A DNA stretch of 64,000 nt, from the NCBI RefSeq assembly GCF_023706045.1, contig NZ_BQYL01000001.1:2152001-2216000 (forward strand). Direction: 5' to 3'. A model generated the notes under the pieces. That model was not told the origin of the DNA and ran no database searches. It saw only the letters and a list, made by a program, of their open reading frames with translations. Below, one piece after another: positions 14,105-51,959 of the stretch. Origin of the DNA: Kangiella sp. TOML190. GTDB taxonomy: Bacteria; Pseudomonadota; Gammaproteobacteria; Enterobacterales; Kangiellaceae. Numbering within the stretch: the first letter of the stretch is position 1; each line of letters opens with the position of its first letter. The position numbers and the translations under genes were made by a program.

Positions 14105-14464
14105 ATGAAACTATTGCTAACCCTTTTTAGTCCGATAATACTTTTCGCTTGTAGTACAATTAGCGATCAATATCCAGAAAGAAAACCACCTGATTTAACA
14201 ACTTTCTATAAACAAGCAGGTTATCCACTTGAGGCGTCGCCGCCTCAGTATCCAAGAAAAGCCGCCATACGTAACATCGAAGGTTGGGTATTGTTTGAAT
14301 TCAACTTATCGCAAGCTGGCAAGCCGACGAACCTTAAAGTTATAGATTCTTACCCTCAAGGTATATTCGAAGAAGAAGCAAGTAAAGCCTTTAAAGAATG
14401 GACTTTTCAGCACATCAATGACGTGGATAGCTATAAATACATTCTGGAGTTTAAGTTACGCTAA
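14105..14464 (+). CDS. Stand-alone TonB C-terminal-domain lipoprotein
   Basis: A 119-residue protein made of a lipoprotein signal (LFSPIILFACS, Cys16), a linker of about 30 residues and a TonB C-terminal domain. The domain signature is clear: YPRKAAIRNIEGWVLFEF at about residues 49-66, then VIDSYPQGIFEEEASKAF and the closing WTFQ. Classic TonB has an inner-membrane anchor and a long Pro-rich span; both are absent, so this cannot transduce energy in the usual way. It may be an outer-membrane-tethered adaptor, but this is inference. A second TonB_C protein with the same SYP.G.F signature is at 50325-51650. Confidence 0.75.
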   Translation: MKLLLTLFSPIILFACSTISDQYPERKPPDLTTFYKQAGYPLEASPPQYPRKAAIRNIEGWVLFEFNLSQAGKPTNLKVIDSYPQGIFEEEASKAFKEWTFQHINDVDSYKYILEFKLR

Positions 14465-47956: not shown

Positions 47957-50250
<2,294 letters not shown>

Positions 50251-50324: not shown

Positions 50325-51650
50325 TTAAGTCTTTAACTTAGACTTATATAAATCAAGTTTTTGCTTCATATCACTAGGCACTCTTCGGTACTTTTTAAGC
50401 TCTTTATTAGCTTTTTTCTGAAATCTAACCGCTTTCTTAAAATCTTTCATTTTGGCATAGGTAGCGGCATAGAGCATGTAGTAGCGAATAGGATCTTTAA
50501 CTTTTTTAGGCTCTAGCAAATCTAGCTTGTTAATAACCAATTCAGGAGAGTAATCCGGATTATCAAACAGTATTTTGGCGATCTCTAGCGCTGACTCTTT
50601 ATCTTCTGATTTAGCAGCCTTATCTAGCCAGAATTTACGCTTTTGTTCCGCTTCTGCACTTGCAAATTGACCATAGTATTCAGACAGTTTTAGCTGCGAG
50701 CGGCCCAAGTCTGCTGATGCCGCTGTGATTAGCCATTTCAAGCCCTTATCAATATCTTTATCGCAACCTTCTCCTCTTAAAAGCCTAACGCCCAACTCAT
50801 GCTGCGAATCGGTCAAACCCTGCGATGCGGATTGATAAAAAAGCTCCGCTTGATTAATGTCATCATCCAATACGGTCGATCCGTACATTGCATAGTAAAA
50901 TTGACCTACAGGGTCCCCTTTCTGAGCTAAAGCTTTGTATTTCTTGATTTTATTTTTAGTTCTGCTCGAGTATTCTTTACCCGACTTGCTGAATTTGATT
51001 TTGTATCTATAACTATTGTCCAAATCCGCACCTGCAACATCAAACTCCCATTCCTTAATCGCATCAATGGTGGCATTATCAAAAACGCCGTAGGGATAGG
51101 AGTCCACAATCTCAATCTCAACAGCTTTACCTTGAGAATTTAGTTTGAATTCTGCGTGAGCAAACCCTTCGATATTTAACGAATCAGCTCTTACTGGATA
51201 AACGGGCAAAGTGGATTTAACAACCTTTGCAAAGTTATAGTCCATTTTATTAGTAAATATCGGCTTTAATTCATTGACCACTGCAGCCTTACTATATTTT
51301 TTGAAAATAGAATCGTAATAACTGTCCGCTTCAGCCTGATCTTTTATATGGGAACTTAGTTGATTGAGAATATCTTGTGTGCCTTGAGACTCCCCATCTT
51401 CATCAGAAAGCTTGAGCCACGCATAAGCTTTTGTCAGATCTCGTTTAGTGCCCAAGCCATCTAAGTACATGAAACCTAAATTATATTGAGCGTTTTTATT
51501 GCCTATTTCTGAGAGTGAATGAAACTCAAGAAATGCTTCCTGATAATTACCTGCTTCATAGTTTTTTACCGCTTTATTAAAGTCAGCCTGTACACTGAAA
51601 GACACAAAAACCATTACAACTATAAAAAAACATCTTAGATTATTATGCAT
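50325..51650 (-). CDS. Secreted Sel1-repeat protein with internal TonB C-terminal domain
   Basis: A 441-residue protein with a signal peptide (residues 1-22, VMVFVSFSVQA). Sel1-like repeats flank an internal TonB C-terminal domain. Repeats: KNAQYNLGFMYLDGLG (residues 52-67), then later DPVGQFYYAMYGSTVL and DSQHELGVRLLRGEGCDKD (about 250-330). The TonB_C signature is at about 150-210 (YPVRADSLNIEGFAHAEFKL, SYPYGVFDNATIDAI). No membrane anchor is seen. Such a mix suggests a periplasmic scaffold; function unknown. It ends a minus-strand unit after rmf. Confidence 0.75.
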   Translation of the reverse strand: MHNNLRCFFIVVMVFVSFSVQADFNKAVKNYEAGNYQEAFLEFHSLSEIGNKNAQYNLGFMYLDGLGTKRDLTKAYAWLKLSDEDGESQGTQDILNQLSSHIKDQAEADSYYDSIFKKYSKAAVVNELKPIFTNKMDYNFAKVVKSTLPVYPVRADSLNIEGFAHAEFKLNSQGKAVEIEIVDSYPYGVFDNATIDAIKEWEFDVAGADLDNSYRYKIKFSKSGKEYSSRTKNKIKKYKALAQKGDPVGQFYYAMYGSTVLDDDINQAELFYQSASQGLTDSQHELGVRLLRGEGCDKDIDKGLKWLITAASADLGRSQLKLSEYYGQFASAEAEQKRKFWLDKAAKSEDKESALEIAKILFDNPDYSPELVINKLDLLEPKKVKDPIRYYMLYAATYAKMKDFKKAVRFQKKANKELKKYRRVPSDMKQKLDLYKSKLKT

Positions 51651-51776: not shown

Positions 51777-51959
51777 TTACATGTAGTTCTTCATTCCTGT
51801 ATTTTGAAACTGCTCGCGCCCTTCTCGCCAGCCGCCTAACCATTCTTCTTTGGCATTGACTTCTTCATAAGGACACAATTCTTTAGACTGACCATGTAAC
51901 GCCGCATTAAAGCCTTTAGAATGTGCTCTTTGTAGCTTATCTCGCTTTTGTCTTTTCAT
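51777..51959 (-). CDS. rmf: Ribosome modulation factor
   Basis: A 60-residue basic protein that matches RMF: MKRQKRDKLQRAHSKGFNAA, the Cys/Pro core LCPYEE and WLGGWREGRE. RMF dimerises 70S ribosomes to 100S in stationary phase. AGGAAG precedes ATG. It has its own long terminator hairpin, in keeping with a strongly expressed stress gene. Confidence 0.95.
   Translation of the reverse strand: MKRQKRDKLQRAHSKGFNAALHGQSKELCPYEEVNAKEEWLGGWREGREQFQNTGMKNYM

Follow-up and report, generated by a model that had tools for sequence, protein, structure and literature searches.

A TonB C-terminal domain between Sel1 repeats in Kangiella: a conserved family of exported proteins and possible periplasmic adaptors of TonB-dependent receptors

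The receptor-binding domain of TonB is usually seen as the distal end of an energy transducer. In the sections of PMC12204202 that describe it, TonB engages the ExbB/ExbD motor through a defining helix in the inner membrane, and its C-terminal domain binds targets by strand addition. In the window, by which we mean the whole 64,000-nucleotide stretch of Kangiella sp. TOML190 DNA analysed here, one gene places such a domain between Sel1 repeats, which raises the question of what a TonB fold might do in that setting. The first-pass annotation of this DNA had suggested an adaptor family in the periplasm. We examined the gene, its predicted product, its relatives and its neighbours. The features of the gene are as follows.

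50325..51650, minus strand: Sel1-TonB_C-Sel1 gene, 441 aa (open reading frame, Pfam and AlphaFold model)
51585..51650, minus strand: signal peptide, residues 1-22, with a V-Q-A / D-F end of signal peptidase I type (inspection)
51402..51491, minus strand: N-terminal Sel1 repeat, approximately residues 54-83 (Pfam)
50982..51230, minus strand: TonB_C domain, residues 141-223 (Pfam and predicted fold)
50709..50810, minus strand: C-terminal Sel1 repeat, approximately residues 281-314 (genome domain search)
50328..50966, minus strand: C-terminal helical part, residues 229-441, TPR-like at its end (AlphaFold model; TPR matches in some homologues)
50763..50765, minus strand: codon of Cys296, the sole cysteine of the mature protein (sequence)

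To define the architecture, we performed Pfam searches, which assigned Sel1 to the 441-aa protein (E value 1.7e-15; 57.3 bits against a cut-off of 30.7) and TonB_C to residues 149-219 (E value 2e-11; 44.6 bits against a cut-off of 24.6). A domain search across the genome placed Sel1 matches above the cut-off on both flanks of TonB_C, at the two repeat positions listed above, whose residue numbers were converted from genome coordinates. The repeats also matched Sel1 proteins in the PDB by sequence (best E value 4.4e-26). By inspection, the signal peptide looks cleavable, and residues 1-22 had a pLDDT below 50 in the AlphaFold model. These results bear out the initial description of an exported protein with Sel1 repeats on both sides of a complete TonB_C domain.

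We then modelled the protein with AlphaFold, using a nine-row alignment in which it was joined by eight named relatives; the model had a mean pLDDT of 85.8 and a pTM of 0.75. Residues 143-220 of the model show strands and helices in the TonB_C order, flanked by helical repeats. Superposed on experimental structures, residues 141-223 of this predicted model matched the TonB of the BtuB complex 2gsk (Z 9.8, 1.5 Å over 81 residues), and residues 141-229 matched the TonB of the FoxA complex 6i97 (2.0 Å over 83 residues). The TonB_C fold that the first-pass annotation had expected at residues 150-210 is therefore present in the model. A fold search with the repeats returned Sel1 chains on top (Z 11-13, rmsd 4-16 Å); such Z values are weak for repeats, so the Sel1 assignment rests on sequence. 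By Pfam and predicted model alike, the protein contains the fold of the TonB C-terminal domain (PF03544; 2gsk, 1u07 and 6i97), resembling it in predicted fold, conserved core and a distance of 1.5-2.0 Å from the receptor-bound TonB of 2gsk and 6i97. Unlike in TonB, the domain lies inside the protein, with a Sel1 arm on either side, and comes without a visible membrane anchor or proline-rich spacer.

Next, we determined how widely this arrangement occurs. In an alignment of 42 proteins (the window protein and 41 homologues at 21-50% identity to it), both Sel1 and TonB_C were detected in all 42 at E ≤ 0.001, so the pairing is not due to chance. A full-length gene was found in 15 of 20 Kangiella genomes, with TonB_C above the cut-off in each of those 15 genes, and further members were found in Aliikangiella, Pleionea, Gilvimarinus, one Spongiibacteraceae bacterium and uncultured Pseudomonadales. 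A profile search across the order matched 40 of 394 genomes at E ≤ 1e-30, some over part of the model only; in a sample of the phylum, 6 of 398 genomes matched at 1e-25, five of them within the order and the own genome among these. A full-length tree of 63 proteins grouped broadly by taxonomy, the one exception seen being L040, which comes from another family and is nested in Kangiellaceae; the fusion is therefore old and mostly vertically inherited. Judged from these sequences, the Sel1-TonB_C combination is an old gammaproteobacterial family. We found no published description of the Sel1-TonB_C-Sel1 arrangement, or of the receptor-regulator module described below, within one literature collection, so in the literature searched the family appears to be a conserved new arrangement of known domains.

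Within the family, the TonB_C core is kept. Among 30 homologues, Pro152, Gly162, Gly174, Phe190 and Trp201 were conserved in all, Phe203 in 29 and Tyr151 in 28. The gene as a whole evolves fast, with 30-52% identity to the window protein within the genus versus 77-93% for rmf and 84-94% for tgt, and the best conserved block in the genus is the N-terminal Sel1 part, at 55% mean pairwise identity versus 40% for TonB_C. We also observed variants of the layout. Two Kangiellaceae homologues of 548 aa (L204 and L205) have a tandem pair of TonB_C-like domains flanked by the Sel1 arms, L206 and L207 are other longer variants, and L208 and L209, from genomes G013 and G011, are proteins of about 120 aa with only the N-terminal Sel1 block of the family.

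A recurring genomic context was found in Alteromonadaceae. Thirteen plasmid records contained a family match, five of them from Pseudoalteromonas. In the three annotated Pseudoalteromonas plasmids, the gene is called "TonB family protein" and follows one TonB-dependent receptor, with a second receptor beyond a regulator; comparison of open reading frames gave the same gene order in the other two. We searched the Pseudoalteromonas protein against 295 Alteromonadaceae genomes, of which 53 matched at 1e-20. Fourteen loci spanning 7 genera formed a close subfamily at E < 1e-80, with the next loci appearing only at 1e-40; because it was defined by these matches, the subfamily was picked by sequence and not by context. 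The resulting module set comprised the 14 genome loci and the 5 Pseudoalteromonas plasmid loci, or 18 distinct records, as L254 and L317 are the same; L255 and L317 are 99.8% identical in the Sel1-TonB_C protein.

In all 18 records, a Trans_reg_C-PD40 regulator and a receptor, TBDR_B, lie beside the Sel1-TonB_C gene, with one open reading frame between gene and regulator in L312. In 16 of the 18, another receptor, TBDR_A, is encoded 178-611 bases upstream in the same orientation; the exceptions are L311 and L318, whose module core is intact though the upstream flank differs. The Sel1-TonB_C gene of L315 is split into two frames. A domain scan of record L252 (E ≤ 0.001) found Plug and barrel domains in both receptors and Trans_reg_C and PD40 in the regulator, and no STN signalling domain on either of these two receptors at that threshold. 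The most hydrophobic window of the regulator fell between its DNA-binding and PD40 parts in all 9 of the 18 records examined for it. The 15 module records included in the tree (all except L255, L315 and L318) formed one clade with 100/100 support; the module is therefore one inherited arrangement and its 18 records are not independent. As an internal control, we inspected seven regions from other Alteromonadaceae branches of the family (L319-L325), and none had a receptor matching the references; a different type of receptor is present several genes from the family member in L257, L258 and L273. Separately, two further Alteromonadaceae branches (L257-L259 and L319-L322; L268, L273, L274 and L323) lie beside recurring neighbours, with no adjacent receptor. 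We take these neighbours to be sthA/hemE-like and hemCDXY-like genes, respectively.

We then carried out the same kind of neighbourhood comparison in Kangiella, where the gene in the window lies between the following two genes.

51780..51959, minus strand: rmf-like gene, conserved upstream neighbour in the genus, which we take to be rmf (ribosome modulation factor)
49135..50250, minus strand: queA-like gene, downstream neighbour in 9 of the 15 gene-bearing genus genomes, presumably queA

The rmf gene adjoins the Sel1-TonB_C gene in 13 of the 15 genomes; in G016 and G017 it is about 5.6 kb away, with other open reading frames between. Downstream, the six genomes without queA at this position have an open reading frame of about 1,640 aa. 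An operon with queA was rejected on this inconstancy, and scans for promoters and terminators gave chance numbers. Five of the 20 genomes have no full-length gene (G004, G005, G006, G011 and G015), and in the stretches fetched from these five we found no family-profile match among the open reading frames beside rmf. In G004, G005 and G006 the next genes follow rmf, and in G015 the contig ends there. An S9 prolyl-oligopeptidase open reading frame follows rmf in G011 (L159:1808-3748); peptidases of the S9 type are also found after some of the Pseudoalteromonas modules.

Within the genus, we found neither a receptor gene nor a TonB gene next to the Sel1-TonB_C gene. Seven regions from other Kangiellaceae had no adjacent receptor matching our four references; the closest one lies at a distance of about 4 kb, in L146. 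We also rejected the idea of a Fur-regulated iron gene: for all 15 genus genes, the best upstream 19-base match to a Fur box was no better than in base shuffles. A link to receptor number was likewise dismissed, as the Plug-domain counts overlapped, with 6-14 in the 15 genus genomes that have the gene and 7-11 in the 5 that lack it. The Alteromonadaceae regulator has no evident ortholog among the 20 genus genomes, where matches at 21-37% identity occurred in 13 (9 of the 15 with the gene and 4 of the 5 without), and a regulator module in Kangiella was therefore rejected. The own genome does have an operon with the look of a TonB2 operon, in which a TPR-like gene follows tonB2; the names of its members are our assumption. 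The window gene, with rmf and queA as its neighbours, lies outside that operon, which has its own TPR-like gene. The genus context thus yields no partner for the window gene and weighs against a simple role in iron uptake.

With these results in hand, we tentatively favour, at slightly less than even confidence, the reading that the Sel1-TonB_C-Sel1 protein is a soluble periplasmic adaptor on TonB-dependent receptors, possibly relaying the state of the receptor to a regulator. One alternative is that the protein transduces energy as TonB itself does, anchored by an uncleaved signal sequence. Annotation points in that direction: the NCBIfam model of the TonB C-terminus, TIGR01352, was matched at 37.2 bits against a cut-off of 27.1, and the three annotated Pseudoalteromonas homologues are named accordingly. 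Full-length TonB models, however, scored only 22-43 bits against cut-offs of 265-448. All 30 homologues inspected have short signal peptides directly ahead of the first Sel1 helix, and what precedes TonB_C is Sel1 repeats and a short linker where TonB would have a proline-rich or helical spacer. The motor motif of TonB has the spacing S-x3-H-x6-L-x3-S. This motif occurred in the first 45 residues of none of the 30 homologues; the shorter S...H spacing was seen in 4 of them, and there at the cleavage end only. By inspection, none of the 30 showed the N-terminal inner-membrane helix with motor motif that is typical of TonB. As no inner-membrane anchor is visible, the Sel1-TonB_C protein is probably not an energy transducer, and we consider an anchored one very improbable. 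The same missing anchor, together with an intact predicted TonB_C fold, would suit a decoy or brake: a soluble TonB fold of this kind would tune uptake by competing for receptors with TonB, and its Sel1 arms would recruit nothing. Large, conserved Sel1 arms on both sides of the domain would be superfluous for such a protein, and this explanation seems improbable.

A different possibility is that receptors are not the partners at all. The protein could be a periplasmic Sel1 scaffold of some other envelope process, such as the control of a cell-wall enzyme, in which TonB_C would serve as a strand-pairing or structural module. The higher conservation of the N-terminal Sel1 block over TonB_C in the genus agrees with this, as does the finding of no receptor neighbour in the other family branches, and there is precedent in PA3978/IltA, a Sel1 protein of the periplasm for which the relevant part of PMC10746161 describes both binding to and inhibition of a lytic transglycosylase. 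Against a scaffold stand the receptor-regulator module in every one of the 18 Alteromonadaceae records and the retention of TonB_C in all 42 proteins; each of the seven positions of its core is kept by 28-30 of 30 homologues. We regard the scaffold as unlikely, though credible.

If the protein is an adaptor, as we prefer, it would be exported and lose its signal peptide, and the mature form would present a TonB fold between two helical arms of the Sel1/TPR type. Having no inner-membrane helix, it could not be driven by ExbB/ExbD. The TonB_C domain would dock by strand pairing on the periplasmic face of a receptor, at the TonB box or plug, while the Sel1 arms would hold a second envelope protein. 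In Alteromonadaceae, this second partner is probably the adjacent Trans_reg_C-PD40 regulator, so that receptor state would pass to transcription. The architecture, predicted fold, conserved family and one-branch module behind this proposal were computed, and the signal peptide and the absent anchor were read by inspection. From these we infer all binding and relay, as well as the extension to the lone Kangiella gene, whose role is assigned through family membership alone. The earlier idea of a periplasmic adaptor family thus fits the anatomy of the protein and the Alteromonadaceae module, with binding as its inferred part; it does not extend to a partner gene beside the Kangiella gene. The family suggests that the TonB receptor-binding domain may also be used as a plain adaptor, and it offers a candidate function for proteins annotated merely as "TonB family protein."

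In the FecA/FecR/FecI system, the state of a receptor is passed across the envelope to transcription, and the proposed module would do likewise. It differs in that the two receptors scanned, from one record, have no STN domain, and in that a Trans_reg_C-PD40 regulator takes the place of the sigma/anti-sigma pair. One could go further and propose an additional envelope signalling route, in which a soluble TonB-fold/Sel1 adaptor senses receptor occupancy and informs a regulator of ToxR topology with a periplasmic PD40 propeller, without TonB energy or a sigma/anti-sigma pair; the Kangiella protein would then act as a stand-alone version, for receptors whose genes lie elsewhere. This broader scheme is speculative, and we think it distinctly unlikely to hold in full.

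Two published systems offer partial parallels. According to the portion of PMC6957404 that concerns it, TonB2-dependent iron uptake in Vibrio vulnificus requires the TPR protein TtpD2, which is a helical-repeat partner of a TonB system, as the protein studied here may be. Both evolve fast: V. vulnificus TtpD2 has 34-37% identity to that of four other Vibrio species in the same source, a figure to be set beside the intrageneric range of the window gene given above. Unlike our protein, TtpD2 is described there with TPR motifs only and in the tonB2 operon. The Sel1 regulators IltA/PA3978 and ExoR (PMC10746161, PMC7327166) are also Sel1 proteins that bind and regulate an envelope partner; the descriptions of IltA and ExoR in the relevant parts of these papers mention no TonB_C domain, and it is by these descriptions that we set them apart.

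Cys296 is unusual for a periplasmic protein. It is a cysteine in all 30 proteins of the first homologue set, and 28 of these 30 have no second cysteine in the mature protein. The pattern G-x-[GKN]-C was found in 0 of 17 proteins of the Alteromonadaceae branch with the receptor module.

Finally, we compared the TonB_C domain with other TonB_C domains, since the first-pass annotation had pointed to a SYP-G-F signature common to the 441-aa protein and a lipoprotein elsewhere in the window.

14105..14464, plus strand: lipoprotein (by inspection) with a single TonB_C domain, the closest own-genome relative of the TonB_C of the 441-aa protein (Pfam and tree)

Pfam confirmed TonB_C in this lipoprotein with an E value of 3.9e-13. 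The exact pattern SYPxG[VI]F was present in 3 of 31 Sel1-family domains, 1 of 6 lipoproteins and 0 of 32 TonB-class domains, and the looser S[YFHLK]P.[GN].F in 7 of 31, 3 of 6 and 1 of 32, respectively. As these counts are low in Sel1-family domains, SYP-G-F is a weak marker, and we rejected its exact form as a mark of the family. In a tree of 75 TonB_C domains, the 6 lipoprotein domains and 18 Sel1-family domains shared one open fork, and 30 of 31 TonB-class rows, a class set by length that holds a few short open reading frames, formed a separate group with 98/92 support; this group includes L165, a TonB row wrongly labelled M56. Since the remaining 13 Sel1-family rows are placed elsewhere, this tree, which has few columns, does not recover the Sel1 family as one group. 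In this weakly resolved tree, the lipoprotein appears to sit among the Sel1-family TonB_C domains and apart from the TonBs. The lipoprotein with its TonB_C domain and its kinship to the 441-aa protein were thus upheld, and the diagnostic value of SYP-G-F was not.

Other TonB_C proteins were seen along the way. Five further loci (L194-L198) encode stand-alone TonB_C lipoproteins, with the lipobox identified by inspection. Outside the window, the own genome has a TonB-like gene at G000:C1:347662-347899 on the minus strand (also L005/L008/L211) whose TonB_C is split over two frames, and which is therefore probably broken; in its relative L190, from genome G017, the TonB_C model was matched over positions 2-79 in one frame. 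A 607-aa open frame of the own genome ends in TonB_C at G000:C1:1533821-1534036 (L002/L012) and is presumably M56/BlaR1-like. L203, from another genome, has two TonB_C domains in a row.
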